Shown piece after piece: positions 1,605 to 47,483 of a DNA stretch of 54,688 nt. Source of the stretch: a virus. Within the stretch, counting starts at the first letter, position 1; the number at the start of each line of letters is the position of its first letter. The DNA is taken from the IMG/VR virus record IMGVR_UViG_3300050132_000403, positions 1 through 54,688 of that record, one strand, 5' to 3'. A program made the position numbers and the translations under genes. The notes below the pieces were generated by a model. That model had not been told where the DNA came from. It searched no databases and saw only the letters and a program-made list of their open reading frames with translations.

Positions 1605-1945
1605 TACCTGTTATCTCCACTTCCTGAAATTACGTTTCTTTGAACTCTATCTCTAACTTTTATAACATTTTCAATTAAAATATCTTTCATCCTTAATTTT
1701 AAATCAGTTGTTAATTTATTAATATACCACTGTAAATCTCCAATTTCTTTTGAAATATTTTTTACATCCTCTTCTGATAAGATACCTTGTTTATCTCTTG
1801 TTGCTTTTTTAACAACAGAAGCTATCTCACCTAATTCTTCAAGACAACCGGTTATGGTATAATGTATTTCTGCAATACCAGTAAGTTTAGTTATTGCTCC
1901 TGCCTCGACTTCATCTTGGTAAGAATCTATTGTAATATCTATCAT
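1604..1945 (-). CDS. MazG-like NTP pyrophosphohydrolase
   Basis: 113 residues, all-alpha. The metal-binding pattern of the MazG/dUTPase-2 superfamily is visible: CLEELGEIASVVKKATRD (ExxE helix) followed by KEIGDLQWYINKL (ExxD helix). Single-domain phage MazG proteins hydrolyse nucleoside triphosphates to monophosphates and pyrophosphate; they are thought to clean the nucleotide pool or lower host (p)ppGpp. Its start forms an ATGA overlap with the stop of the downstream-coordinate HNH gene. The neighbours make nucleotide-pool housekeeping for modified DNA plausible. Confidence 0.8.
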   Translation of the reverse strand: MIDITIDSYQDEVEAGAITKLTGIAEIHYTITGCLEELGEIASVVKKATRDKQGILSEEDVKNISKEIGDLQWYINKLTTDLKLRMKDILIENVIKVRDRVQRNVISGSGDNR

Positions 1946-3003
1946 TTATTTTCTTCTTTATATTCCCATTTAAAACCTGCTGAGGTTTTTCTTTTACCTA
2001 CACAGCATAACCTTATATCTTCTTCTGTAAAACCTAAAGTTTCATTTACTTCTCTACAGGAATAAAATTCTTTAATAAATTCATTACTTAAAGTAAATTG
2101 TAAAACTGCCTTTGCTTTACCTGTTCTACCAGATTTTATACCCTTCTTTTTAGAAGGTATACCAACTCTACTTTTATGAAGATGTTTTCTTTCTTTACGT
2201 GTTTTTAAACCTTTTTCTATACTTTCTGCAGTAGGTTTATATGGGTTTAAAAGTTTAGTTAACTTCATCTTATCTATAGTCTCTTGAGAAATTGGTTTTC
2301 TAACTTTTGTAGATACTTTTGCAGCTTCAGACCTCTTTTTTATTATTACTTGTCTTTCTTCTTCTGTTTTACTCTCCCAATTTTCTTTAAATTTTCTTTT
2401 AGTTTCTGCAATTTGTTCAGGAGTTCTCTTTTCTCTTGCTTCTTTTATTTTTCTTTTAGTTTCTTGAGAGTGAGGAACTCCTGGTATACCTCTCCTTTTT
2501 AATCCTCTTTCTTTACTTTTTATTTTATTTTCAGGATTATTTTTATAAGACTCAAAAATTCTATCTACTATTTCTTGTAATTCCTCTTTACTTTTTTTAC
2601 TTCTTGTTTCTTTTTGTTTCCTAATTTTCTCCTCAGTAATAATTTTTCCAGTATGTAACTTAGTAGTTATAATTGAAACTTTTTTTCTTATATCCTCATA
2701 AACTCTTGAGGAAATTTTATATTCTCTTTTTTGATGTTCATTTTTAGCATTACACATAGTCCAGAAAGCATAATTTATACCATTATTCTCTGGATAAATC
2801 TCAACAAGTAGCCTATGGATTAGAAAATGTTCTCTTGCGGTTAAGAAAACAAGATTTTCTTTCTTATTAGAACCTCCAAGACATTTAGGTATTATATGGT
2901 GAAGTTCAAAATATTGGTAATTTGGTTCAGAAGTTTTATAACGTCTACGACCTGAATTTTGTGCTTTTAAAATTATCTGGTCATGAATTTTTTGGTAGTT
3001 CAA
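1942..3003 (-). CDS. HNH homing endonuclease (NUMOD-type DNA-binding tail)
   Basis: 353 residues. The N-terminal 75 carry the HNH core: FELHHIIPKCLGGSNKKENL, then REHFLIHRLL. The middle is a Lys/Glu-rich, repeated basic region (QETKRKIKEAREKR, TIDKMKLTKLLNPY) of the NUMOD3 kind. The C-terminus (AVLQFTLSNEFIKEFYSC, then GFKWEYKE) is a NUMOD1-like helix-turn-helix. It is inserted between folE and mazG without breaking either. It is a clear paralogue of the HNH gene at 27252-28568, sharing YQKIHDQII and the HHII/GGSNKKENL core. Free-standing phage HNH proteins cleave intron-less or gene-less alleles to spread. Confidence 0.92.
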   Translation of the reverse strand: MNYQKIHDQIILKAQNSGRRRYKTSEPNYQYFELHHIIPKCLGGSNKKENLVFLTAREHFLIHRLLVEIYPENNGINYAFWTMCNAKNEHQKREYKISSRVYEDIRKKVSIITTKLHTGKIITEEKIRKQKETRSKKSKEELQEIVDRIFESYKNNPENKIKSKERGLKRRGIPGVPHSQETKRKIKEAREKRTPEQIAETKRKFKENWESKTEEERQVIIKKRSEAAKVSTKVRKPISQETIDKMKLTKLLNPYKPTAESIEKGLKTRKERKHLHKSRVGIPSKKKGIKSGRTGKAKAVLQFTLSNEFIKEFYSCREVNETLGFTEEDIRLCCVGKRKTSAGFKWEYKEENK

Positions 3004-6393: not shown

Positions 6394-6573
6394 TTATTTT
6401 TGATTAAGTGAGATCTCATCACTTTCTGTAGTTGTAAAAGTCTCTTGGCACTTTTTACAAACATAAAACCACCATTTTAAAATTTTTCCTCTACTTTTTA
6501 AATCTCTCTCTTCAAGTTCTACTGACTTTGAGGAACAAAAAGGACACTGTACTATTTCAACTGGGTTTATCAT
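6394..6573 (-). CDS. NrdR-like zinc-ribbon protein without ATP-cone
   Basis: 59 residues read from ATG at 6573 to TAA at 6394. The sequence starts MINPVEIVQCPFCSSKSVEL, then has a basic stretch, then YVCKKCQETFTTTES. Four cysteines in CPFC and CKKC and the FTTTE after the second pair closely follow the zinc ribbon of NrdR (CPxC ... CxxC ... FTTxE), the repressor of ribonucleotide reductase genes. NrdR's ATP-cone domain is absent. The start overlaps the stop of the RNR C-terminal gene as ATGA, so it is translated right after RNR. A MqsA/YgiT-type zinc ribbon is an alternative. Confidence 0.75.
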   Translation of the reverse strand: MINPVEIVQCPFCSSKSVELEERDLKSRGKILKWWFYVCKKCQETFTTTESDEISLNQK

Positions 6574-8210
6574 GATTTAAATCTTTCTAAATATTCTGCA
6601 GGCATTTCACAAGATGAACCTGTACACGAAGCAGACCCCATTGTGTCCACGTCTGTATAGGTAGGTTTTAAGTTTGCTTTTGAGAAGTCAATCGGTTTTA
6701 GTTCCCTATTTATTTCCACCCATTTATGGTATAAATAAACGTCTTTCAAGCAATATGACATTTGAAGTACATCATTTTTAAAGTATCTCTTTGCAAATTG
6801 TTTTGCTCGCCTTAACCAATCTTTCTTTAATAGTACTTCACGTTTGGTTCCTTCAAGTTTTGTGGTTCTGTTTACAACGTAATTGGTTGCTATCCATAAA
6901 TCATCAAAGTCATAAAGTGCATCTGTTATTAACCCTGCTGCAAAAATTGAGGCATCACCATACTTTGTAAGTATTTTTTCAGGAGTTAATACTGAGGTGA
7001 ATGGTGCCTGTTTATAATCTTTATCACCAAATTTTCCTAAAAATGATACCCCTGTATAGAATTGTTTATTTTCATATACATAATCTCGTACCTCATCCCA
7101 ATTTTCAACCTCTACAGTATTTGAAACAGAATGTCTAAGAAATGGTTTTACACATGCTTCAACTCGAGTTCCATACTCTACCCAATTTTGTTGAATTTTT
7201 TTAACTATCTCAAGTTGTTTTATCCCTACTAAATCTTTTTTAAATATTGACCCTTTTTTAGAAGTAACAGGTATATAAACTACATAATCAGATTTTGTAG
7301 ACGACCATACAGATTCTTCAATTAGAAACGGATACTGTTCATTTAGTATTTTACCAATTTCTGACTCTTTATTAATTTGCATTAATCTAAAATAATCCTC
7401 ATCATGTTCACCATGACAACCAGATGCAGTTTCAAGTAGTACACTGGTATTACCCTCGGGTTTGACGGTTGTACCTCTTGCTGTTGGGTTTATACCAATT
7501 ATTTTTGCTACTTCCTCATTTATTTTTAAAACAAGTTTTGCACCATCCTGCATATTTTTTTCATCAAGCAATATTTCTGGATTATTCATCCACCCGGTTA
7601 TTGAACAACCCAATAATGCTTCCCTATCAAATATTTCTTTTGTAGTACTAGATACATATTTAAAATCTGTATAAGCTGCCTGAAGTGTACCAAGTACAGC
7701 CATTCCTGTACAGGCTTGTAATAATTTTTCTCTACTTGTTAATTTACTACCATTTGCTGATGAAAGGTTACATCCTTCCCATCCACTCAGACCATCTTTT
7801 GTCTGTGGATACAGATTTATTTCACAACAAGGGTTAGTCCCCTGGTCTAAATCATTAACAAAGTAGAAACCTGGTTCACCAAAATCTTTTATACAACTAA
7901 ATATTTTATCAAATTCTTCTTTAGTTGTCTCTTCTCTTATTAATACTACTGAATTATTAGATCTTGCACGTTGTTTATTAACTCCTCCTTGTGGGTTATA
8001 ATTTGGATAAGTTTTTGCACTCATCATTTTATTATCTTCTTTAGAAAAAAGACAAATAGAAGCTGAGTTATGAGAAACCGACTCAAGTCCTGACTCACTT
8101 TTTGCATTAAAACAATGTATATCTTTTACTTCAATATCATAAGTATCTTCTTCAACTAAATATTCTACACCTTTTAATGGTATAAGTTCAAAATCTTCTA
8201 ATTTAAACAT
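6570..8210 (-). CDS. Ribonucleotide reductase (class II type), C-terminal half preceded by split-intein C part
   Basis: 546 residues. The first 48 are a C-terminal intein fragment ending VSHN, and the extein begins SASICLFSKED. The extein has the radical-site motif TNPCCEINLYP (usual NPCGE) with the following GCNLSSANG. It also has TARGTTVKPEGNTSVLL, where PEG..S marks substrate binding, and a C-terminal Cys pair SASCTGSSCEM that would be re-reduced by thioredoxin. Together with the N half at 9294-10337 it gives about 748 residues after splicing, the size of the monomeric adenosylcobalamin-dependent enzyme of the Lactobacillus type. No ATP-cone and no small subunit are seen. Confidence 0.93.
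   Translation of the reverse strand: MFKLEDFELIPLKGVEYLVEEDTYDIEVKDIHCFNAKSESGLESVSHNSASICLFSKEDNKMMSAKTYPNYNPQGGVNKQRARSNNSVVLIREETTKEEFDKIFSCIKDFGEPGFYFVNDLDQGTNPCCEINLYPQTKDGLSGWEGCNLSSANGSKLTSREKLLQACTGMAVLGTLQAAYTDFKYVSSTTKEIFDREALLGCSITGWMNNPEILLDEKNMQDGAKLVLKINEEVAKIIGINPTARGTTVKPEGNTSVLLETASGCHGEHDEDYFRLMQINKESEIGKILNEQYPFLIEESVWSSTKSDYVVYIPVTSKKGSIFKKDLVGIKQLEIVKKIQQNWVEYGTRVEACVKPFLRHSVSNTVEVENWDEVRDYVYENKQFYTGVSFLGKFGDKDYKQAPFTSVLTPEKILTKYGDASIFAAGLITDALYDFDDLWIATNYVVNRTTKLEGTKREVLLKKDWLRRAKQFAKRYFKNDVLQMSYCLKDVYLYHKWVEINRELKPIDFSKANLKPTYTDVDTMGSASCTGSSCEMPAEYLERFKS
8067..8210 (-). other. C-terminal split intein fragment in RNR
   Basis: Residues 1-48 of the C-half gene. The conserved C-terminal blocks are EEDTYDIEVKDIHCFNAK (block F) and the terminal VSHN followed by Ser as the +1 nucleophile (block G). 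The junction Asn is encoded at 8067-8069 and the +1 Ser at 8064-8066. It should assemble with the N fragment at 9297-9587 and splice in trans to restore GGVRR-SASI. Confidence 0.9.
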
Positions 8211-9297
8211 TAAATGTCTCCTTAATTTTATTTTCCAATTGTTTAATATCTTTAAGTTCAGTACACCAAACTACTAATACTTTATACCCTTGTTCTATAG
8301 CTACATTTAGTTTAATTTGGTCCTTTTCCCATAAATCTTTAACCATAAAACTTGTTCCTCCAGGAAAGTCTATAACTTCAATAGGGTTTTTATACTGTTC
8401 AGGATTTGCATGCCAAAAACTACCATTAAATTCAACTAAAATCTTACCAACTTTGCAATCATAGAAATAATGAGTTTTATTTTTCTTTAATGGAAACTCA
8501 TATTCATCTATGACAACCCCTAACTTTTCCATTAAAGAAAATAATTGTATTGATTGTTTAGACTTACTACCAGTTAGCATACCTTTTATTCTTAACTTTT
8601 TTGAAGCCAAGTATTTATTTAAACCTTCTTCTTCACCATGTAGTCTAATACTATTTTCTAAAGTAGGAGATGATTTTAAATTCTTTTCTTTAAATTTTTT
8701 CTCACCTAATTCTTCACCAAATTTTTTAATATAATTTTCTAAAGTATTCCCTTTAGCTTTATTATTAGTAAGGTATTTTTCTCTTCCTATTTCTTCACCA
8801 TACCTTTCTGTATAATATTCTAGATTAAATTTAGTATCTTTAAAATATGTAGATTGTTTCTCTTTTGGGCACCATCCTACTAACCCATCTTCACCATATT
8901 TTTCTTTTCTGGTTTCATTAGTTTTTTTATTAATTTCTTTATTTTGTTGAGGGTTTTCAACACCATATCTTTCTAAATTAATTTTCTTTATTTGTTCTTG
9001 TACTATTTCAGAAGAAAAAGAATTTTCAACACCATATTTTTCTAACATTTTTTGTTTATACCCTTCTTTAAACTTCTCTGTTTTAAAAATACAACTTACT
9101 CTATTTCTTTCAAGAAAGAGGTCTTTATATTCTTTAGTATCTCTATATACTTTACGACAAGTCATTGAACAAGTAAAAGCTACTGTTTCTAAATTAGAAT
9201 CTATTTCTGACCTATATATTTTTAAAGTGTTAGTACAACTTATACATTTAACTATAAAACAAACATCATTCTTTCTCTCTATTATAATATTTTTCAT
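8203..9297 (-). CDS. Vsr-like homing endonuclease between the split-intein halves
   Basis: 364 residues. The C-terminal about 110 have the very-short-patch-repair-like nuclease signature: KILVEFNGSFWHANPEQY, then DLWEKDQIKLNVA and GYKVLVVWCTEL. The N-terminal part has a Cys pair (CISC) and tandem short repeats of the type LERYGVENPQQ and YGEEIGREKYL that are usual DNA-binding modules of phage nucleases. It overlaps the RNR N half by four bases (ATGA) and the C half by eight. The order is that of the published fractured genes, where a free-standing Vsr-like endonuclease sits between the two halves of a split-intein gene. Confidence 0.9.
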   Translation of the reverse strand: MKNIIIERKNDVCFIVKCISCTNTLKIYRSEIDSNLETVAFTCSMTCRKVYRDTKEYKDLFLERNRVSCIFKTEKFKEGYKQKMLEKYGVENSFSSEIVQEQIKKINLERYGVENPQQNKEINKKTNETRKEKYGEDGLVGWCPKEKQSTYFKDTKFNLEYYTERYGEEIGREKYLTNNKAKGNTLENYIKKFGEELGEKKFKEKNLKSSPTLENSIRLHGEEEGLNKYLASKKLRIKGMLTGSKSKQSIQLFSLMEKLGVVIDEYEFPLKKNKTHYFYDCKVGKILVEFNGSFWHANPEQYKNPIEVIDFPGGTSFMVKDLWEKDQIKLNVAIEQGYKVLVVWCTELKDIKQLENKIKETFNV

Positions 9298-10337
9298 TTT
9301 TTCTCTTTTAAAAATGAAAAATTTTGTAAATCTTTAGAAATTTCTAAAGCTGTCTCCCATATAACTTCTTTATTTTTTAAACTATAAACTAACCATTTAT
9401 GATTTTCAGTTGAGGTATGATAACCAGTTTCAGTTATAAGTTTTATTAACTTCTGCTTACCTTGTATAAAAAGATTTTCTATTAAGTGTTCTTCACCTTT
9501 AAATAAAACTTTATCTTCACCACTTTTAATATCTTTTATATTCTTCCACCCAGTAGTAGTTTCAACTTCGTAAGAACCTGGTAAACACCTCCTAACCCCA
9601 CCGCTGAGTACAGCATCTGCCATGTGGCAAACTATATCATAACAATCTTCAGTTTCAAGTCTATTTCTGTTATCTTTTAGTGCTTTATTTAATAATTCCT
9701 CAGCTCTTTCAATTGATTGTTTAAGTCCATCTGGTCCTGGTGCTTTAAACCCTCCACTTATCATTGCACCTTTTGGACGAATTAATGAGTAGTCAAAATA
9801 AACTGTAAAATTTTGGAATTCAGGAAATGGTACTTCTCCTTGAAAAAATGAAGACATTAATACTCCAAACGCATCTGCCCAACCCTCAATTGAGTCTTGT
9901 ACTACAAATGTTTTAGTACCATCATTTCTATTTGTTATATTAGGTAGTTTATTTACGTGCCTATATTGTACAGAATATCCAACTCCACATCCACTCATTA
10001 AAAAATACATTGCTTCTTGGAAGAATTCTGTTCTATCACAATAAGAAAAAATGCAATTAAACATTTTTGCATTGTGCTTCATAATCGGTTCACCACCGAA
10101 CTGTAAAGCCCTTTGAGAGCCTATAATTACTTTGTCAAGATAAAGTTGTTCAGTTAAGTTAAATAACTCATTAAATCTTTCGTTTTTAAATGCTTCTTGA
10201 AACTTTGGGTGGTTTCTGTGCATGTTCATTACACGCTTAACGCTGTCTTCCCAGGTTTCTACAGCTTGTTTTTCTTCGTTATATTTTGCATAATCTAAAT
10301 AGTACTTAATATCACTGGCTAATTTTGTGCCTTTCAT
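9294..10337 (-). CDS. Ribonucleotide reductase (class II type), N-terminal half with split-intein N part
   Basis: 347 residues: 250 of RNR and a 97-residue N-intein. RNR signposts are MFNCIFSYCDR (the redox-active Cys region), AMYFLMSGCGVGYSVQYRH and HMADAVLSGGVRR, as in monomeric B12-dependent reductases. The intein begins with Cys after GGVRR, inside a highly conserved motif, and the frame stops after SFLKEKK without completing it. Reduces ribonucleotides to deoxyribonucleotides for phage DNA synthesis. It starts a new unit, with an 86-base leader separating it from dnaE. Confidence 0.93.
   Translation of the reverse strand: MKGTKLASDIKYYLDYAKYNEEKQAVETWEDSVKRVMNMHRNHPKFQEAFKNERFNELFNLTEQLYLDKVIIGSQRALQFGGEPIMKHNAKMFNCIFSYCDRTEFFQEAMYFLMSGCGVGYSVQYRHVNKLPNITNRNDGTKTFVVQDSIEGWADAFGVLMSSFFQGEVPFPEFQNFTVYFDYSLIRPKGAMISGGFKAPGPDGLKQSIERAEELLNKALKDNRNRLETEDCYDIVCHMADAVLSGGVRRCLPGSYEVETTTGWKNIKDIKSGEDKVLFKGEEHLIENLFIQGKQKLIKLITETGYHTSTENHKWLVYSLKNKEVIWETALEISKDLQNFSFLKEKK
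9297..9587 (-). other. N-terminal split intein fragment in RNR
   Basis: Residues 251-347 of the N-half gene. It starts CLPGSYEVETTTGWKNIKDI (block A with nucleophile Cys1). It continues to KLIKLITETGYHTSTENHKW (block B with the TxxH histidine) and ends after ALEISKDLQ. Cys1 is encoded at 9585-9587. With the 48-residue C fragment it forms a mini-intein of about 145 residues, with no endonuclease inside. Confidence 0.9.
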
Positions 10338-10423: not shown

Positions 10424-12367
10424 TTATAATATAGTTAGAATTGTATCGTTTGTGGTATGGATAACCTGCTTGTGCTTGTAATTATCTGTTACCACTTTTC
10501 CTTTTATAAAGCATATTGAGCCTATGTTTTCTTTGAGTTCTTTATAAAACTGTTCATAACTTTCGTTCCACATTGTTATATAAGTAGTTACAAAGTTTTC
10601 TTCAAGTGCAATTTGACAGAATGGTCCCCTTTTAGATTTTCTTTCTATTATTTCTTTAATACACCCCCCAACTATTACTTCTTTATCTTGAAGTTTTGTA
10701 TTTTCTTGAAGAGTATCCCCTGAGATATATTGAGTAACAAACTTCTTAAATTCTGATGTTTTTAGTACAGAAAAAAAGTTTATGAACCCGAAGCCTGTAA
10801 GTTCACGCTGCCTTATTATCCACTTATATTCAGGCCACCTTCTATATTCTTCAAGTTCTGGTAACAGTTTTTTATTATTACTCTGCTCATAGTATTGAAC
10901 TAATAATTTATATCTATCTCGTATATCAACTATTTTTTCAATTTCATCAAAGGCGCCTGCAAAAATTAAGTTTTCTACAGAACGTTTATTTACTTTACGC
11001 TTTTCTACTCTCTCTACAAATTCTTCCAATGAGAAATATTCTCCATCTTCAGATCTCCATAATACCACTTCCTCTACTGCAATTTTCCCTACCCATTTTA
11101 TTGAGTTTAATGACCAATATATTTTTTGTGTATTAACATCTGGGTAAAAAGAATCTTTTGACTTGTTTATATCAACTGGTGCAACTGTTACTATTCCTAG
11201 TTTTTCAATCTCTGCAATTTTTTGAATTAACTCATCTGATTCTGAAAATTCAAGTGCAGTTGTCCAAAATTCAAGTGGATAATTATATTTGTACCATTGA
11301 GAGAAGTAACCAAGTAGTGAGTAACAGACAGAATGCGATTTATTATAAGTATAGCAGCCAAATCCACATAACTTCTCCCAAATTGTATTTGCCTCATCTT
11401 CAGGACAATTATTCTTCAAACAACCACTTATAAATTGATCTTCATATTTTTTAAGTGCTGCAGGAGATTGCAAAACCATTGCCTTCCTTATACTATCTGC
11501 TTCGGTTAATGTAAAACCACCTAATATTGTAGTAATAGACATAATCTGCTCCTGATAAATAGGAAACCCATAAGTTTCTTTGGTAAGGTCCTCAAGCATA
11601 TAGTCATACTTAATTTCTTTCTCACCTTTCTTTACCTTAATCAGGTCAATATGAGCATTCATAGAAATTGGACCTGGACGATAAACCGCTGCAATTAATG
11701 AAAGTTCTGAGACATTTGAAGGCTGAAAATCTTTACAGTACTGTATTAATCCTGAGGAAGTGAATTGGAATACATCTTGATTTAACCCTTCCTTAAACAG
11801 GTCGAAAACACCTTCATTCTCAAGGTCAATATCATCATAAGTCAATTTTTTACCTGTATGAAGTTCTATTAACTCGTTCATACGTTGGAATTTGTCAAGT
11901 TGCTGCAGACCTAATATATCGAATTTTAAGAACCCCATCTTTGAAATTCCATATACATTCCATTCACTTACTATTTGTCCATCAACTTTTTTAACAGGCA
12001 TCCAGGTGGAGATATCTTTATAATATCCTTCTTTAGTTTCTTTTGGTGTTATTATTGTCCCTGAGGCGTGAATTGAAGCAGTTGAAGGACCGTTTAAGAT
12101 TAATGGTAGTTTTTCAATGATGTGAGGATAATTTTGTATGAACTCTCTCAACATTGGTACATCCTTTGCATTTTTAAAGAGTTCTGTATAATCTCCTTTT
12201 GCATCAATTACAGAAGTTATGATATTAGATTTTTTTGTTTCTATACCATATCCTCTATTAAGTGCTTTTACCGCTGCCTTTATTTTAAAAGCGTTATATG
12301 AACCCATTCCAGTAACAAAGTCAAGACCATACTTGTCTCTCATGTACTGTTCTGCAATTGGTTTCAT
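10424..12367 (-). CDS. dnaE: DNA polymerase III alpha subunit (DnaE type), C-terminal part
   Basis: 647 residues from the first ATG. It begins MKPIAEQYMRDKYGLDFVTG, i.e. just after the PDxDxDF catalytic motif of the family. It keeps the third catalytic Asp in FLKFDILGLQQLDK, and the fingers motifs VAAVYRPGP-like (LIAAVYRPGPISMNAH), YGFPIYQEQIM and YNKSHSVCYSLLGY. A helix-hairpin-helix region and an OB-fold near the end (KEVIVGGCIKEIIERKSKRG) follow. The open frame actually continues upstream through DTDFGTK to a TGA at 12413, so this start omits a catalytic Asp. See the junction entry for how it could be joined. Confidence 0.92.
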   Translation of the reverse strand: MKPIAEQYMRDKYGLDFVTGMGSYNAFKIKAAVKALNRGYGIETKKSNIITSVIDAKGDYTELFKNAKDVPMLREFIQNYPHIIEKLPLILNGPSTASIHASGTIITPKETKEGYYKDISTWMPVKKVDGQIVSEWNVYGISKMGFLKFDILGLQQLDKFQRMNELIELHTGKKLTYDDIDLENEGVFDLFKEGLNQDVFQFTSSGLIQYCKDFQPSNVSELSLIAAVYRPGPISMNAHIDLIKVKKGEKEIKYDYMLEDLTKETYGFPIYQEQIMSITTILGGFTLTEADSIRKAMVLQSPAALKKYEDQFISGCLKNNCPEDEANTIWEKLCGFGCYTYNKSHSVCYSLLGYFSQWYKYNYPLEFWTTALEFSESDELIQKIAEIEKLGIVTVAPVDINKSKDSFYPDVNTQKIYWSLNSIKWVGKIAVEEVVLWRSEDGEYFSLEEFVERVEKRKVNKRSVENLIFAGAFDEIEKIVDIRDRYKLLVQYYEQSNNKKLLPELEEYRRWPEYKWIIRQRELTGFGFINFFSVLKTSEFKKFVTQYISGDTLQENTKLQDKEVIVGGCIKEIIERKSKRGPFCQIALEENFVTTYITMWNESYEQFYKELKENIGSICFIKGKVVTDNYKHKQVIHTTNDTILTIL

Positions 12368-12398
12368 TTTAGTCCCGAAATCTGTATCGACTCTTTTT

Positions 12399-12410
12399 GG
12401 CCCGAAGGCC
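12399..12410 (-). other. UUCG-capped hairpin just after the TGA in dnaE
   Basis: GGCC TTCG GGCC on the minus strand: a four-base-pair GC stem closed by a C(UUCG)G tetraloop, among the most stable RNA loops. It begins two bases after the TGA that follows SLPDI. A stop codon followed at once by a UUCG hairpin is also the arrangement in the T4 gene 60 coding gap. Confidence 0.6.
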
Positions 12411-12411
12411 G

Positions 12412-12461
12412 TTCAAATATCCGGGAGCGATGATGCAACCACCTTCTCCCGGATATTTGAA
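12412..12461. repeat. perfect 16-bp inverted repeat in the dnaE junction
   Basis: Arms 12446-12461 (minus-strand TTCAAATATCCGGGAG) and 12412-12427 (CTCCCGGATATTTGAA) are perfect reverse complements around an 18-base loop. The second arm encodes LPDI and the TGA. No T-run follows on the minus strand; on the plus strand TTTTTTT follows within a few bases. Confidence 0.9.
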
Positions 12462-12481
12462 GTTATTTTTTTAATAATCAT
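12413..12481 (-). CDS. possible true N-terminus of the DnaE C-part (22 codons to TGA)
   Basis: ATG at 12481 opens a 22-residue frame beginning MIIKKITSNIREK and ending VVASSLPDI. The last residues match the DnaE segment that directly precedes DTDF. If ribosomes pass the 27-nt interruption, the C-terminal polymerase subunit would start here and carry all three catalytic aspartates. MIIKKI also resembles the first residues of split C-inteins (MxxKKI), which could be a remnant. Speculative. Confidence 0.35.
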   Translation of the reverse strand: MIIKKITSNIREKVVASSLPDI

Positions 12482-12532: not shown

Positions 12533-14167
12533 TTAGTTCAAAATAAGTTCATCACCCTCAGCCAAATCTTTTGCAAGAATATCAACAAATTTACCTTCTC
12601 GTTTTACTTCAACCATAGAATCTTCGTCAAATTCCTTTACCGTATCATCTTCCATTGTAAGAAAATAATGTTGGTACTTAACATCTTTGAAACGACCATC
12701 ATTTAAGAAACGCTCAAATAGTAACCCATACTTAACGGGATCTACGCCAGTGAGGTTGGTGACGTATGAGAGTAATGCCCCTGCGGCTGAGCCTCTGCCT
12801 AATCCTATCAATGCCCCCTGTTCCCTACAATGTCTTAATACATCCGCCAATATCAAAAAGTAATCCTGAAAACCCCCTTTATTTATTGTTTCAAGTTCAG
12901 TTTCAAGACGCTCATAATAAATAGACTCATCAGGTACTTTTCCTATTATATATTTTTCAAAACCTTTTTCTATCAAGTCATAGAACAAATCCTCAGTTGT
13001 TGCATATTTAGCTTCCTCCTCCTCTGTCATTATATATTTTGGAAGAAAAAGGTTACCTGTACGGATTTTAAACGTACATAATTCACCTACAGACTTTGCG
13101 TTATCAAGCGCTTCATAAAATATCTCATACTGCCTATCATCTTCGGATTTGAAGAGGCTACTCATTTGTGTATATATTTCCTCACCTGATTTAAACCATT
13201 GATCAGATGATTGTGGTTTAAATCCTACCCCTACAATTTTATTTAGAATTTTTTTGACTTCGTGGTCTGAGGCATCAAGGTAGTAGGCATCTTGAATGAG
13301 TATAGGACGTATTTTTGATTTATAATTTTCAAAGTAGTCCTTAATATTTTCTAACCATTTTGTATCTCTGTCATTTGAGGACCATTCTGTAAAATCAAGT
13401 TGGTAGTATAAATGTTCAAACGCTGAATATTTTTTAAGAAGAACATCTGTTAAAACTGTTTCTGGTGTAAGTACACATACAAGTCCCCTTACGTATTTTT
13501 TTAGTTCTTCAAACGGTATTACTTTGTCTATAATTGTATCGCCGTTACAATTGATATAATTAGATATTTTGAGTAAATTATCCCACCCCCTGTCATTTAT
13601 AACATAAAGTTTTATAGAATATCTAGTCTCATTTTCAAGTACTGTAACTGTTTCTCCAATTATTGGTTTAATATCGTTCTCTTCACAAGTTCCTTGAAAT
13701 GATAGTGTTCCTCCAAGTGTGTTTTCTTCACAAATTGCTAATGTTTTATATCCTAAAAATTTTGCTTTTTTACACCATTCAGGATAATCTTTTGACCCGT
13801 TACCTAATTCATAGCCTCCATGTATTCCTAAAAATGGAAAATCAAAGGTAAGTTCATCTGAACATTTACCTATATGTTTAAAAAGATCAAATTTTGGTTC
13901 AAAAGGATCACAATAATAGTAATGAGACCCAAATTGAAAGACAACTTTTTGTATATTATTATCTCTTATGAATTCTATTTCTTCAGATGTATAATAAAAT
14001 TCAAAGTTTCTATCAACTAATAGTTCACGTTCAGTTCCATCTATTTCTACAGTTTTTGGATAAATTACTTTGTATAAAATTTTGTCAAGATAAAATAAAT
14101 CATAATCTATAAAATCTACATCAAGACGGTTTTCTTTAATCCAATCTTCAAGTGATACTAATTCCAT
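12533..14167 (-). CDS. dnaE: DNA polymerase III alpha subunit (DnaE type), N-terminal part with intein-like tail
   Basis: 544 residues. A PHP domain occupies roughly 105-185 (FPFLGIHGGYELGNG, KFLGYKTLAICEENTLGG, IKPIIGETV). The usual metal ligands, such as those of HSxYS and TDHG, are replaced, so proofreading or phosphatase activity is unlikely. The palm motif ALIGLGRGSAAGALLSYVTN then LTGVDPVKYGLLFERFLN is intact. After FLNDGR the sequence leaves the DnaE family: the last 52 residues look like the second half of an N-intein. The gene overlaps the dNMP kinase gene by ten bases. Confidence 0.92.
   Translation of the reverse strand: MELVSLEDWIKENRLDVDFIDYDLFYLDKILYKVIYPKTVEIDGTERELLVDRNFEFYYTSEEIEFIRDNNIQKVVFQFGSHYYYCDPFEPKFDLFKHIGKCSDELTFDFPFLGIHGGYELGNGSKDYPEWCKKAKFLGYKTLAICEENTLGGTLSFQGTCEENDIKPIIGETVTVLENETRYSIKLYVINDRGWDNLLKISNYINCNGDTIIDKVIPFEELKKYVRGLVCVLTPETVLTDVLLKKYSAFEHLYYQLDFTEWSSNDRDTKWLENIKDYFENYKSKIRPILIQDAYYLDASDHEVKKILNKIVGVGFKPQSSDQWFKSGEEIYTQMSSLFKSEDDRQYEIFYEALDNAKSVGELCTFKIRTGNLFLPKYIMTEEEEAKYATTEDLFYDLIEKGFEKYIIGKVPDESIYYERLETELETINKGGFQDYFLILADVLRHCREQGALIGLGRGSAAGALLSYVTNLTGVDPVKYGLLFERFLNDGRFKDVKYQHYFLTMEDDTVKEFDEDSMVEVKREGKFVDILAKDLAEGDELILN
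12536..12691 (-). other. decayed N-intein-like segment at the end of the DnaE N part
   Basis: Residues 493-544, beginning FKDVKYQHYFLTMEDD and ending AKDLAEGDELILN. They align by eye with the block-B to split-site portion of gp41/nrdJ-type N-inteins (x-LxLEDGxxxxxxEDHxxxV, then AKDLxxGDELI). The expected block A with Cys1 is missing, and the block-B His is Ser (DEDSMVEV). Splicing by the normal mechanism therefore looks impossible. Confidence 0.6.
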
Positions 14168-16867: not shown

Positions 16868-17901
16868 TTATTTACTATATGGTTGATAATCTGGATTAGA
16901 CCTACATAGTTTCTGATGCCTATCAAAATTACTACAACTAAAAATACCATTACAGAATTCACAAACCTTTGTCTTAGTTTTATATATTCTTACTTCTTTA
17001 CTTTTTCTTAAACAATATTCTGTATGTCTATCAAAAGTACCTTTTTTCTTAATATTTTTACCACATATTTCACAAGTAAAAACTGGAAATAAAAGTGCAG
17101 CTTCCTTATACTTTTGTATTCTTAATTCTAAAAGTTCAGGGTTATTTTTGTAAAACTCATTTAATTTTTTCTTTGCTTTTTTTAGAATTTCAGGGTTTTC
17201 TAGAAAAAGTTTTTTTCTATGTTCACCTTGTTTTTTACCTTCTTCGGGGTTATCTACAAAAAATTTCTTTTTTTGTTTACTTCTGGGTTATTTTCCCAAA
17301 AATCATTAATTGCCTTTTTATGTTTTTCTTTAAATTCAGGATCTTCAAATTTTTTCTTAGCTGAGTCACTTTTCTTCTTAATATGGTCAGGATACTTACA
17401 TTTTTCTTTTGATTTTTCCCCTACTTTTACCCTTCCTTCTGGATTATCAATATAATACTGTGAAATTTTTATACCATTTTCTTTTGAAAACTCAGGGTTA
17501 TCTTTTAAAAATTGTTTTCTTTGGTCACTTTTCTCTTTTAAAAATTCAGGATTATTTTCATAAAATTGGATATGACTTAAACTAAGTTTTTCAAGTGTCT
17601 CTTCAACAACATTATAATCTCTACAACCCCCAGATGTTTTATTATAACCAATTAAGGGGTTATTTGCATCAAAAACTTTTACCCAATATTTTTCTTGTTT
17701 ACTTAAATCTTCTCTATTACAAAATTCTAAAGTTTCACAATAGAAGTTGTGTTTACCGAACTCTTTTATTGCCTCACGTAATGCGTTACCTGAGCCTATA
17801 TATTTATCATTTAAGTTATCTGTACGGTGTTGACCAATATAAATTTTACTATCTACTTTATTAGTAGTTTTATAAATAAGATTATGTTTATGTATTTTCA
17901 T
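16868..17901 (-). pseudogene. GIY-YIG homing endonuclease, frameshifted in an A7 run
   Basis: The first frame (17254-17901) encodes a GIY-YIG domain (HNLIYKTTNKVDSKIYIGQH, KYIGSGNALREAIKEFGKHN) and NUMOD3-like repeats of the type ENNPEFLKEKSDQRKQ. It stops at TAG shortly after seven A residues (17268-17274). The -1 frame continues the same repeats (VDNPEEGKKQGEHRKK, FYKNNPELLE) to TAA at 16868. It ends in two zinc-finger-like modules, CEICGKN...FDRHTEYC and CEFCNGI...FDRHQKLC. One extra A, or a -1 slip on AAA AAA, restores one protein of about 344 residues. It sits between the helicase and primase genes. Confidence 0.85.
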
Positions 17902-26932: not shown

Positions 26933-27252
26933 TAATCTGTGTATAAGTTATATAATAAATCTCCTGCAGAATTTATGGTGTAGAATGAACCATCGCCTGA
27001 AGTTAATGTTTGAAATAATTGTCCTTCCTCGTCCAAAAACCAGTTTACGTTTCTGTTGTACTTTTTTAGTCCAAATACCAGGTCTGCTTGGTTTACAACT
27101 AGTTTGTCAAGTACAAAGTTTATGTCTGATAGGGTTGCAAAAAAGGTGTCTGGTAAACAGTTTTCATTTAAGAAATAGATATGTTGTAATTCTGCAGTTG
27201 AATTTTGGAAGTATGAATTCTTACTGTAGGTGGTTATTAATTTTTGTTGCAT
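26932..27252 (-). CDS. small baseplate-associated protein (106 aa)
   Basis: 106 residues, MQQKLITTYSKNSYFQNSTA, then NCLPDTFFATLSDINFVLDK. Aromatic and Asn-rich like neighbouring virion proteins. It joins the 816-residue tail gene with a one-base overlap (TAATG type) and lies just downstream of the inserted HNH gene. No family recognised; structural role inferred from position. Confidence 0.6.
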   Translation of the reverse strand: MQQKLITTYSKNSYFQNSTAELQHIYFLNENCLPDTFFATLSDINFVLDKLVVNQADLVFGLKKYNRNVNWFLDEEGQLFQTLTSGDGSFYTINSAGDLLYNLYTD

Positions 27253-28568
27253 TAGGCGGCGATTTGGGGGTTAAGTAGTTTGGCTTCACGGTTTTTACGT
27301 GTAGTTTCAAGCATTTTATTAATATGTTCAGTTTTTTCTTCAGGAGATTTTAAAGTCCAAGTTAATTTTTGTTTATCACTTGTCTTTTTCTTGTCTTCTT
27401 CTGTTCTAATTTTTACAGGGTAAAGTTCAGGATTCTGTTCTCTTAATAACTTATTTCTCTCTTTAGTTTCTTTTCTCTTTTTTAAAGTTTCTTCTTTTTG
27501 CTCAGGAGTTTTTGAAGTTTTAGTTAATGATATTTTCTTATACATTAACTCTTGTTCCCTCTTCCAAATTTCCATTAACTCAGGGTTACTTTCTCGTTCT
27601 AATTTTTTCTGTTCTGTCTTTTCTCTTTTAGCTTCAATTGCATTATTTTTTAGTACTTCTTTTTCTTGTTCAGTTAAAGAATTATAGTATTTTTTGTAGT
27701 TATTACTACACATTAACTTTATCTTATCTTTTTCTTCTGTAGTTCTATTACTTATTGTTTTCTTCCTAGATATTTGGATTTTTTTATATTGCTCAATTTT
27801 TTCTTCAATTGGTTTTAATTTACATGCTAATTTCATAGCTTCAGATTTTTGTTTTTTTGTTTTCTCCTTTACTTCAGGATCTTTATTTTTCCAAGTTTCC
27901 TTTCTCTTACTTTTAGTTTTTTCTTGTTCTTCTTTAGTACGTTTAGATTTAGTTAATTTTTCTTTTTCTAATCTTTTTTGTTCAGTTTCTGTAGTTTTAT
28001 TTTTTTGTATTTCTTTACATTTATTGGAAAATTCTAGTTTTTCTTCTTCAGTTTTACTTTTCCAACGAGAACTTATTTTTTCAGATATTTCTCTTTTCTC
28101 TTCTTCAGTCCTTAATGATTGAGAAAGTTTTATCTTATCTTTTCTCGCTTGTTTTTCTTCTTCACTTTTTAAAGAATTTGTTAATTTTATCTTTTTGTAT
28201 CTTTCCTCCTTAAATCCTGGTTTATTTAAAAATATAACTAAGTTTTCTCTTGATTCTTGAAAAGCTCTTGAAGATACTATATGAGTTCTATTAAATTTTT
28301 TATTTTTTAAACAACTACACATTATCCAAAATGCACAATTTATTTTATAATTTTCAGGATTAGCTCTAGTTAATAGCCAATGAACTAGAAAATGTTCTCT
28401 TCCAGTAAGATTTACTAAATTCTCTTTTTTATTTGAACCACCTAAACTTTTTAAAATTATATGGTGCCGTTCTAAGTAAATATAATCTGGATGGTTATAA
28501 GATAATTTTTTTCTATCAAGTTTTTTTGCTCGTTCAATTATTTGGTCATGTATTTTTTGATAATCCAT
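27252..28568 (-). CDS. HNH homing endonuclease with long Lys/Glu repeat tail
   Basis: 438 residues. Its N-terminal 80 parallel those of the HNH gene at 1942-3003: YQKIHDQIIERAK, YLERHHIILKSLGGSNKKEN and LVHWLLTRANPENYKINCAF. The remaining 330 residues are an extremely Lys/Glu/Thr-rich series of short repeats (EEKREISEKISSRWKSKTEE) of the NUMOD3 type, predicted helical. It is wedged between baseplate J and its downstream partner with a TAATG overlap. The flanking genes stay intact, as expected of a free-standing homing endonuclease. Confidence 0.88.
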   Translation of the reverse strand: MDYQKIHDQIIERAKKLDRKKLSYNHPDYIYLERHHIILKSLGGSNKKENLVNLTGREHFLVHWLLTRANPENYKINCAFWIMCSCLKNKKFNRTHIVSSRAFQESRENLVIFLNKPGFKEERYKKIKLTNSLKSEEEKQARKDKIKLSQSLRTEEEKREISEKISSRWKSKTEEEKLEFSNKCKEIQKNKTTETEQKRLEKEKLTKSKRTKEEQEKTKSKRKETWKNKDPEVKEKTKKQKSEAMKLACKLKPIEEKIEQYKKIQISRKKTISNRTTEEKDKIKLMCSNNYKKYYNSLTEQEKEVLKNNAIEAKREKTEQKKLERESNPELMEIWKREQELMYKKISLTKTSKTPEQKEETLKKRKETKERNKLLREQNPELYPVKIRTEEDKKKTSDKQKLTWTLKSPEEKTEHINKMLETTRKNREAKLLNPQIAA

Positions 28569-33624: not shown

Positions 33625-34812
33625 TTAATTTTTAATAATTAGACGGTTACTTTCTACTTCTCTGAACCCACAATTGGTATTCTCCATAGACACAACGGGT
33701 ATTTTTATCCCTGAATTTTTTAGTTTAAAAAGCCTAAGGCCTTCTTTTTTAATATTGATTGCTGCGTTTAAATCTCTATTTAAGGTAAATCCGCAGTTAA
33801 AACAGTTGTAAGTTCTGGTAGATAGTAAAAGTGTATCTTTTTTGTTACCACAATTACTACAGAGTTTGGATGAGGGGTAAAAGGTTGAAACTTTGATGAG
33901 TTCTCTACCGTACCAATTACTTTTGTATTCTAACATATTAGTGAATAAACTCCAACTAACATCGTTTATAGATTTTGCTAATTTATGGTTTTTAACCAGA
34001 TTTTTTACTACTAGATTTTCAATTATAATCGTTTGGTTATCACTGATTAATTTATTTGAGATTTGATGGTAGTAATGGTTACGTTGATTAATTATTTTTT
34101 CATGTGTTTTTGCAATTTTAATTCTGAGTTTTTCACGGTTTTTACCACCCTTTTGGGTTTTAGAAAATTTTCTTTTTAAATGTAATAGTTTATATTTTTG
34201 TTTTTGTAATAATTTAAGATTTTCAAATTCTTGACCATCTGAGGTAGTAACAAAAGTTTTGATACCTAAGTCAATTCCAATGAGTTTATTGGTTTTAGGT
34301 AAGATTTTAACTTCTTTATCTTCAATTAAAAAAGTTGCAAAATATTTACCAGTTTTTTCTTTAATGAAGGTACATTTTTTAATTTTGGTATTTTTAAGTT
34401 TTTCAAGATATTTATCTGAGGTTTTAAAATTATATAAAGATTTTAAAAATTGTAGTTTATTATTTTTTATAATAATAGCTTGTTCATAACTAAAAGTTTG
34501 TTTATAGTCTTTCTTTTTAAATTTTGGGTAATTACCATCTTTAAAAAATTTTTGATATGTATTATCAACTTCTATACTTGCCTGCCTAATACATTCAGAT
34601 TTACAGATTTTTAAAAATGGTGCCTCATGTCTAAGTTTAAGAAGTTCTTTTTCAATACTATTACCACTTAAAGGTATTTTATACCAATTCCACATCTTAG
34701 TTTTATAATCTAAACACAGATTATAGGCAAAACGGTATCCATCAAAATGATTTTGAAGAATTATTTCTTGTTTTTTGGTTGGATAGATTTGTACTTTGAG
34801 TCGTTTAAACAT
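33625..34812 (-). CDS. tnpB: TnpB-type RNA-guided nuclease (IS200/IS605-like orfB)
   Basis: 395 residues. All catalytic pieces are present: RuvC-I Asp in LIGIDLGIKTFVTTSDGQEF, RuvC-II Glu in TIIIENLVVKNLV, a zinc ribbon (KLCSNCGNKKD...YNCFNCG) and RuvC-III Asp in TLNRDLNAAINI. The N-terminus MFKRLKVQIYPTKKQEIILQ is the standard TnpB opening. No TnpA is adjacent. It sits flush between two tail genes (one-base overlap upstream, 12 bases downstream), behaving like a homing nuclease. A guide RNA would be expected at its 3' end but I cannot delimit it. Confidence 0.93.
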   Translation of the reverse strand: MFKRLKVQIYPTKKQEIILQNHFDGYRFAYNLCLDYKTKMWNWYKIPLSGNSIEKELLKLRHEAPFLKICKSECIRQASIEVDNTYQKFFKDGNYPKFKKKDYKQTFSYEQAIIIKNNKLQFLKSLYNFKTSDKYLEKLKNTKIKKCTFIKEKTGKYFATFLIEDKEVKILPKTNKLIGIDLGIKTFVTTSDGQEFENLKLLQKQKYKLLHLKRKFSKTQKGGKNREKLRIKIAKTHEKIINQRNHYYHQISNKLISDNQTIIIENLVVKNLVKNHKLAKSINDVSWSLFTNMLEYKSNWYGRELIKVSTFYPSSKLCSNCGNKKDTLLLSTRTYNCFNCGFTLNRDLNAAINIKKEGLRLFKLKNSGIKIPVVSMENTNCGFREVESNRLIIKN

Positions 34813-46307: not shown

Positions 46308-47483
46308 ATGAAAAAACAGATACTTAAAACCTTTAAAGTCCAGCTTTTACCAACTGACCCTCAGAAAATACTTCTTGAGAAACATTTTGGATGTACAAGA
46401 TTTGTTTATAATTATTTTTTGAATGAAAGAAATCAGAATTATCTAAAAAATAAAGAACAATCAGATTATTATGGTGATTGTTTAAAACTTACACAATTAA
46501 AAAAACAAGAAGAATTTAAATGGTTAAAGGAAACTAATGCACAATCTTTACAGTGTTCCTTAACTAACTTAGATCTTTCTTTTAATAGGTTTTTTAAAAA
46601 GAAAAGTAATTTCCCAAACTTTAAATCAAAATTTAATAGAAAATCATTTGAAATACCCCAAGATATTAAACTTGAAAATAATAAACTTTCTATCCCTAAA
46701 TTTAGAGAAGGAATAAAAATAAATTTACATAGAGAAATTGAAGGTACGATAAAACACTGTACAATTTCTAAAACTCCAACTAGTAAATATTTTGTTTCTA
46801 TACTTTGTGAAACTGAACATGAAATACTATCTCAAAGCCAAAAATCAATTGGACTTGATCTTGGTATCAAAACTTTTGTTGTTACCTCAGACGGTCAAGA
46901 ATTTGAGAATATTAGAACAACTAAAAAATATTCAGTTAAGTTAAAAAAATCACAACAACATTTATCTAAAAAAATTAAAGGAAGTAATCGTTATAATAAA
47001 CAAAAACTAAAAGTTGCAAGAATATATGAAAAAATAGTAAACACAAGATTAGATAACATTCACAAAGTTACAACTCAACTCATTAAAGAAAACCAATTTA
47101 TTTCAGTTGAAGATCTAAATGTTAAAAGTATGATTAAAAATAAAAATTTGTCAAAACACATTTCTGATGTAAGTTGGTCAAAATTTTTAGAAATACTTAC
47201 TTATAAAGCCGATTGGAATAACCGTATTCTTGTTAAAGTTGATAGGTTTTATCCATCTTCTAAAACTTGTAATGAATGTGGATATATCCACAAAAATTTA
47301 TCTCTATCTGAAAGAACTTGGACTTGTAAAAACGGTCATGTTTTAAACAGAGATATAAATGCTGCAAAAAATATACTCAGTGAAGGAGTAAGACAATATT
47401 CGGAAGGTACATCCGAAAACACTAATGGAGAAACGAAACGTTGTAAAACAAAGGTAGTTTCTGCGAAGTTAGTAGAGGTTTAA
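46308..47483 (+). CDS. tnpB: TnpB-type RNA-guided nuclease on the plus strand
   Basis: 391 residues, the only convincing plus-strand gene. RuvC-I (SIGLDLGIKTFVVTSDGQEF), RuvC-II (FISVEDLNVKSMI), the zinc ribbon (KTCNECGYIHK...TWTCKNGH, with the last Cys replaced by the common NGH form) and RuvC-III (VLNRDINAAKNI) are intact. It resembles the 33625 TnpB in the core (DLGIKTFV.TSDGQEFEN) but differs elsewhere. No TnpA. It is inserted between the sheath gene and an 88-residue gene, whose stop lies 16 bases from its own stop, so the guide RNA must be very compact or overlap coding sequence. Confidence 0.93.
   Translation: MKKQILKTFKVQLLPTDPQKILLEKHFGCTRFVYNYFLNERNQNYLKNKEQSDYYGDCLKLTQLKKQEEFKWLKETNAQSLQCSLTNLDLSFNRFFKKKSNFPNFKSKFNRKSFEIPQDIKLENNKLSIPKFREGIKINLHREIEGTIKHCTISKTPTSKYFVSILCETEHEILSQSQKSIGLDLGIKTFVVTSDGQEFENIRTTKKYSVKLKKSQQHLSKKIKGSNRYNKQKLKVARIYEKIVNTRLDNIHKVTTQLIKENQFISVEDLNVKSMIKNKNLSKHISDVSWSKFLEILTYKADWNNRILVKVDRFYPSSKTCNECGYIHKNLSLSERTWTCKNGHVLNRDINAAKNILSEGVRQYSEGTSENTNGETKRCKTKVVSAKLVEV

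Follow-up and report, generated by a model that had tools for sequence, protein, structure and literature searches.

The 54,688-nucleotide window, which is the whole stretch of viral DNA that was analysed (IMG/VR virus record IMGVR_UViG_3300050132_000403), is likely to carry a programmed translational bypass site in the gene for the C-terminal half of a fractured phage DnaE. Here, the catalytic motif is interrupted by 27 bases that begin with a stop codon, and ribosomes probably jump over this interruption, because eight other phages are interrupted at the same spot, always beside a strong RNA hairpin.

The window dnaE consists of two genes on the minus strand and is in this sense fractured. 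The initial annotation had recognized an interrupted DnaE motif and placed SLPDI, TGA, GGCC-TTCG-GGCC and DTDF in the right order and at the right coordinates; all of these lie on the minus strand. Its gene structure required revision, as the interrupted gene is the second of two and opens with a 22-codon leader. The locus comprises the following features:

12533..14167, minus strand: dnaE N-terminal half (PHP and start of the polymerase domain; Pfam PHP, DNA_pol3_alpha)
12481 to 10424, minus strand: dnaE C-terminal half overall, from ATG 12481
12416..12481, minus strand: leader open reading frame of the C-terminal half, MIIKKITSNIREKVVASSLPDI, 22 codons, starting at ATG 12481
12446..12461, minus strand: 5' arm of the long stem-loop, TTCAAATATCCGGGAG, within leader codons
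12428..12445, minus strand: apical part of the stem-loop, with the inner 6-bp helix GGUGGU-UGC-AUCAUC
12412..12427, minus strand: 3' arm of the long stem-loop, CTCCCGGATATTTGAA, covering the LPDI codons, the stop codon and the first insert bases
12416..12418, minus strand: proposed take-off codon ATT (Ile), from restoration of the motif
12413..12415, minus strand: TGA stop directly after the take-off codon
12389..12415, minus strand: 27-nt interruption, TGAACGGCCTTCGGGCCAAAAAGAGTC, absent from L001 and all unfractured relatives
12399..12410, minus strand: GGCC-UUCG-GGCC hairpin within the gap, 2 nt after TGA
12389..12391, minus strand: proposed landing triplet GTC (putative pairs with tRNA-Ile GAU: G-U, U-A, C-G)
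10424..12388, minus strand: remainder of the C-terminal half, DTDFGTKMKPIAEQ..., with a Pfam finger domain and HHH_6 and no further break

A conserved tail, FKDVKYQHYFLTMEDDTVKEFDEDSMVEVKREGKFVDILAKDLAEGDELILN, closes the N-terminal half and is shared with other fractured dnaE genes; a phrog_13169 match runs to the end of this half. The leader equals MKVIKIKEEERQKVVASSLPDI in L001, and the leaders of the L030 group, in both length and position. Just before the interruption, S-L-P-D-I is encoded on the minus strand as TCG CTC CCG GAT ATT, and after the 27-base gap DTDFGTKMKPIAEQ resumes in the frame of the leader, with GAT ACA GAT TTC (DTDF) beginning at 12388 on the same strand, right after GTC. 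Between the GGCC-TTCG-GGCC hairpin and GTC lies AAAAAGA (minus strand), which had been proposed as a helper resembling a Shine-Dalgarno sequence; it is at best a weak match to one, and this role is not supported.

Comparison with IMG/VR record G001 (L001, L090-L091), which is collinear with the window, defines the interruption. DNA identity over the dnaE region is ~84%, and the C-terminal halves share 95% protein identity; G001 reads MKVIKIKEEERQKVVASSLPDIDCDFGTKMKPIAEQ without interruption and so encodes an unbroken SLPDIDCDFGTK. Within the stretches aligned to this record, no window insertion besides these 27 nt is longer than 11 nt, and by this alignment they are an insertion in the window relative to G001/L001. 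An alignment to solved DnaE structures places SLPD at E. coli residues 398-401; thus, the gap separates the two residues that align with D401 and D403, which are known to be catalytic in DnaE. This position, together with the absence of the bases from L001, bears out the earlier claim that they fall exactly between the two catalytic aspartates.

As a separate observation, the tail of the N-terminal half (12533-12712, minus strand) and the leader of the C-terminal half together look like an additional domain placed immediately ahead of the catalytic motif, and the fracture falls within this region, for which L002, L003, L030, L040 and L004 were compared. The insert at this pre-motif position is unsplit in L040 and L004, and it is absent from MA9V-3 (L005). 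Its pattern (AkDLxEGDeI) recalls Hint folds; the N-half tail alone has no PHROG match.

The GGCC-UUCG-GGCC hairpin had been noticed at the outset, whereas a larger one had been overlooked: nucleotides 12461-12412 are predicted to form a long stem-loop with a perfectly paired 16-bp stem and an inner 6-bp helix (-29.8 kcal/mol, z -6.6), whose 3' arm contains both the take-off codon and the stop. The 80-nt stretch with both hairpins folds at -37.3, the lowest value in the window on either strand (the next is -29.6), and the expected count of GGCCTTCGGGCC in shuffled versions of the window is 0.01. No structure is predicted for the L001 counterpart of the long stem-loop (z +0.25). The window leader stem uses CGG, TCG, CTC and CCG, codons that are rare by the phage's own usage, and none of 10,000 synonymous recodings of the leader, drawn according to that usage, was as stable (z -8.4). 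Moreover, the eight consecutive leader codons before the stop differ from those of L001 only synonymously. Hairpin stability and synonymous-only changes, taken together, suggest selection for both the hairpin and the encoded residues. Searches against Rfam returned no match at gathering score in the window and none relevant at E<=5 in the locus, yielding no intron, SECIS or riboswitch. A reading of the hairpins as a terminator or transposon end was dropped, since no T-run follows them and no further copy of the element turned up in the window, which does have two TnpB genes.

To place the window site in its family, dnaE relatives were gathered from IMG/VR, GenBank phages and bacterial genomes and sorted into three classes by the frame of the motif: continuous upstream with the polymerase N-terminal domain, continuous upstream with a separate leader, or broken. 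Loci whose upstream sequence was too short were excluded. The motif is broken in 9 of 53 fractured dnaE loci, as compared with 0 of 205 unfractured ones (Fisher p=3.7e-7). All nine gaps, counted including the landing codon, lie at the same motif, and their lengths are 1, 5, 7, 7, 8, 9, 27, 40 and 43 nt; skipping each of them restores LPDIDxD exactly. Each pair of take-off and landing codons was chosen so that joining it restores the motif; the tests allow two joins per site and no other choices:

Window: take-off ATT, gap 27, landing GTC
L127: take-off ATT, gap 5, landing ATT
L095: take-off GAC, gap 9, landing GAT
L099 (GenBank MT835601): take-off GAT, gap 40, landing GAT
L018: take-off CCT, gap 43, landing CCA
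L107: take-off CCC, gap 1, landing CCT
L200: take-off CCG, gap 7, landing TCG
L208: take-off CCG, gap 8, landing TCG
L007 (GenBank MT835494): take-off CCG, gap 7, landing GCG

For L018, a CAA-to-CAA join (34 nt) was considered first and given up for CCT-to-CCA, because the latter restores SLPDIDVDF. A GAT-to-GAT join had likewise been offered as a second option for the window; every relative has the two motif residues that this join would remove.

At seven of the nine sites, the triplet right after the take-off codon is a stop (P=1.1e-6), CAA occupying this place in L018 and L099, and the same tRNA can re-pair at the landing codon, one G-U being allowed, at eight of nine (P=1.8e-6 against shuffled gaps); these shuffling tests treat the nine sites as independent, and dropping two of L007, L200 and L208, whose elements may share a transferred endonuclease cassette, would weaken the numbers. 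The landing match is full at five sites, involves one G-U at codon position 1 at three, the window's ATT-to-GTC join among them, and contains a mismatch at one (L007). The 60 nt ending at the take-off codon have a mean z of -3.6 in the nine broken loci (range -6.4 to -1.5) and of -0.1 in the 44 intact fractured loci (Mann-Whitney p=2.6e-6). In all nine, the 3' foot of the stem lies from 2 nt before to 4 nt after the take-off codon, and leader lengths equal those of intact kin. The L099 gap also holds a 10-bp UUCG hairpin. In a quick protein tree, the interruptions appear as nine separate changes at the tips, several with close intact sisters, the program counting changes without separating gain from loss.

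The search among related phages thus uncovered eight others broken at the same motif, with the window's own insert in none of them; nor did exact-element searches of viral and genome collections find a second copy, the single 18-mer match of the window element sitting in unrelated GC-rich DNA. The ATT-to-GTC bypass put forward in the initial annotation gains support from the recurrence of interruptions at one motif, the stop-adjacent take-off codons, the re-pairing landing codons, the hairpin at every take-off codon and the unchanged leader lengths, and it is the simplest reading that restores the motif.

Two further observations concern individual members of this set. The two longest gaps, those of L018 (~2928-2970) and L099 (~1003-1042), have CAATT..CCC..GGGAGCG in common despite the distance between the two phages, a hint of possible mobility of the gap itself. 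L127 has an apparent in-frame intein inside the dnaE C-terminal half (L127:143-3661; CLSGESNI...HNC), and its N-terminal half carries an intein C-part ahead of SAGGSL; with its 5-nt gap, three kinds of interruption occur in one polymerase.

The proposed bypass would proceed in four steps. The 22-codon leader would be translated as far as ATT, with TGA, as seen in the sequence, in the A site. The ribosome would then stall without terminating, and peptidyl-tRNA-Ile would release ATT. Next, the long stem-loop predicted here may zip up behind the ribosome and pull the mRNA through, an action modelled on the T4 5' stem-loop; in the window geometry, the apical helix would only be starting to emerge at the moment of take-off, and full zipping would account for ~21 of the 27 nt. 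Finally, the tRNA would re-pair with GTC, 27 nt on, and translation would resume at GAT, giving SLPDI-DTDF with both catalytic aspartates present.

T4 gene 60 long stood isolated as an apparently unique bypass among phages (PMC3014915), whereas the dnaE sites recur across many phages. Gene 60, folded in the same way, served as a control, and both the 5' stem-loop and the UUCG take-off stem-loop known from it were recovered. The top helix ends 15 nt before GGA in this fold, in agreement with the published model, in which the stem top has already formed outside the exit channel with GGA in the P site (PMC5009743), and the gap directly follows DADHDG. Both systems involve the second gene of a fractured replication enzyme, a gap near its 5' end at a metal-binding Asp motif, a take-off codon with an immediate stop, a UUCG hairpin, an upstream stem-loop and a link to homing endonucleases (PMC5009743, PMC11194080, PMC3014915, PMC2988022). 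The T4 tetraloop hairpin at take-off is matched by GGCC-UUCG-GGCC in the window, and UUCG recurs in L099. A stem-loop of the T4 5' type is strong at all nine dnaE sites and absent in intact kin, but its position differs, as it touches or contains the take-off codon, whereas that of gene 60 ends 9 nt before. Gaps of 1-43 nt compare with 50 in gene 60, and the landing match, unlike that of gene 60, is imperfect in 4 of 9 sites. The best-studied nascent-peptide signal, KKYK, lies ~30 residues upstream in gene 60; the window leader, at 22 residues, lacks KKYK, though a different peptide signal may act there. Gene 60 encodes a topoisomerase unrelated to DnaE in gene and sequence, and common descent was not found.

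Other systems share particular traits. The byp elements of Magnusiomyces capitatus mitochondria, with 81 sites in one genome that seem independent of mRNA context, are also short non-coding inserts in conserved genes, skipped by ribosomes and with some imperfect take-off/landing matches (PMC5009743). They involve yeast mitochondrial ribosomes, whereas for dnaE one site per genome was observed, accompanied by a strong hairpin. At the short end, L107 (CCC TGA, 1-nt offset) resembles +1 frameshifting at CCC_UGA, and L095, with two Asp codons flanking a stop and a 9-nt gap, resembles a stop-hop (PMC5009743); these two look like the short end of one continuum with the longer hops, because they share the same location and the same abutting hairpin. 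Zeta-group crAss-like phages provide another parallel, in which the catalytic Asp motif of a core phage gene is broken in a different enzyme: their RNA polymerase genes carry unexplained frameshifts and stops in the DxDxD motif, for which the authors suggest yet unknown expression mechanisms (PMC7886860).

Homing endonucleases are the likely reason for the gaps, as judged from the genes around them, since an insert in a highly conserved site would block cutting while the hop would leave the essential enzyme functional in full. HNH or GIY-YIG genes lie between the halves or directly upstream of the C-terminal half in five of the nine broken loci (L007, L018, L099, L200 and L208), those of L018 and L099 being of GIY-YIG type and directly before the C-terminal half; some members thus combine a host gene split in two with an endonuclease at the fracture. 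L007 and L262 have upstream genes that are 97-99% identical and are nearly identical over the 200 nt after the motif. L007, unlike L262, carries one more HNH endonuclease gene, together with a leader that has diverged and a 7-nt gap, and the divergence stops at the motif. L200 and L203 repeat this pattern at lower identity, with an endonuclease assigned to the same PHROG. These two closely related pairs show almost directly that endonuclease, new leader and gap arrived together. Codons around the motif have also changed locally in L107 relative to L106 (94% identical overall). Endonuclease-like genes also occur upstream of intact leaders, so they are not sufficient for gaps, and no significant difference between broken and intact loci is claimed; because intact leaders have such neighbours and no endonuclease gene lies between the window's two halves, the link is suggestive and unproven. 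The dnaE pattern fits a proposal made for T4, in which the topoisomerase gene was split by mobA and protection from cutting is a possible role of the gap (PMC5009743, PMC2988022).

A DNA methyltransferase-like gene was also observed between the dnaE halves in three loci (L007:6625-7392, L200:555-1319 and L202:1585-2367), adjoining HNH genes in L007 and L200. The window genome itself is rich in homing elements. Its ribonucleotide reductase (6570-10337, minus strand) is split by an apparent split intein, whose N-part begins with C after SGGVRR and whose C-part ends in HNS; a homing-endonuclease gene (8203-9297) separates the two intein parts, whereas the G001 enzyme is intact (747 aa, L090:5812-8055). 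Further homing-endonuclease-like genes (PHROG match) lie on the minus strand at 1942-3003, 27252-28568 and 17254-17901. TnpB-like genes (OrfB_IS605, Cas12f1-like_TNB) were found at 33625-34812 (minus strand) and 46308-47483 (plus strand), with no TnpA noticed nearby.

The main rival to bypass holds that the gaps are mutational scars, indels left at the conserved motif by error-prone repair after homing-endonuclease cutting, and that the dnaE copies are dead or dying. Such scars would explain the location: every interruption lies at one conserved motif and at a branch tip, as recent damage also would, and endonuclease genes are adjacent in 5 of 9 loci. This reading is nonetheless unlikely, as it predicts neither a strong hairpin at every take-off codon, nor rare codons in the stem, nor stop-adjacent take-off codons, nor landing codons that re-pair. 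Furthermore, the C-terminal half bodies (~650 codons) show no other stops within 600 codons unless the contig ends, and dN/dS against L001, measured from MKPIAEQ onward, is 0.056, a value that mostly reflects time before a recent event. Sequencing or assembly error is extremely improbable: the sequences are metagenome contigs, but the same architecture recurs in nine separate records, among them GenBank MT835494 and MT835601, there is a sharp contrast between fractured and unfractured loci drawn from common sources, and a structured 27-nt insert would be atypical as an error.

The remaining rivals concern how the two frames might otherwise be expressed. Stop readthrough or selenocysteine insertion, for which the window's in-frame gap with one stop only would be suited, would place nine residues, X-TAFGPKRV, between the two catalytic residues, splitting a motif that is unbroken in unfractured relatives. 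TGA ends 12 of 53 window genes as an ordinary stop, so it is not generally reassigned in this phage, and a recoded-TGA reading was dropped on this ground; there is also no SECIS or other relevant RNA family match. Because TGA is a stop elsewhere and 7 of the other 8 gaps shift the frame, readthrough fails as an explanation for the family and is very unlikely. Related phages have introns and inteins in core genes (PMC7886860), so the insert might be removed from the RNA, or the frames joined by transcriptional slippage; however, gaps of 1, 5, 7, 8 and 9 nt are too short for splicing, Rfam gave no group I/II or other intron family match, and the junctions have no homopolymer run, making either route exceedingly unlikely. 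It is scarcely credible, finally, that leader and main part are made as two polypeptides, with the second initiated at MKPIAEQ (ATG 12367) or a non-standard codon. One split already exists in these dnaE genes, but no in-frame ATG, GTG or TTG lies between TGA and DTDF, initiation at MKPIAEQ would leave out both motif aspartates, and leader lengths are kept exactly.

Programmed bypass thus stays the preferred reading, and its best explanation would be that it rescues gaps left by homing endonucleases or protects against their cutting. Nine natural sites that share a hairpin design and span gaps of 1 to 43 nt would make ribosome hopping a comparative subject, in which what hairpin position, stop codon and landing match each contribute could be read from natural sites and tested side by side. 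The sites would also offer direct tests of the purpose of the gap, namely immunity to homing endonucleases. Gene callers drop the 5' end of such polymerases, catalytic residues included, and the finding may shed light on the broken catalytic motifs reported for RNA polymerases of crAss-like phages (PMC7886860). More broadly, the evidence leans toward hopping as a recurrent strategy against homing endonucleases, combining gaps in catalytic motifs with a stem-loop drive; if so, the gap would make the target uncuttable while the hop keeps the enzyme whole.
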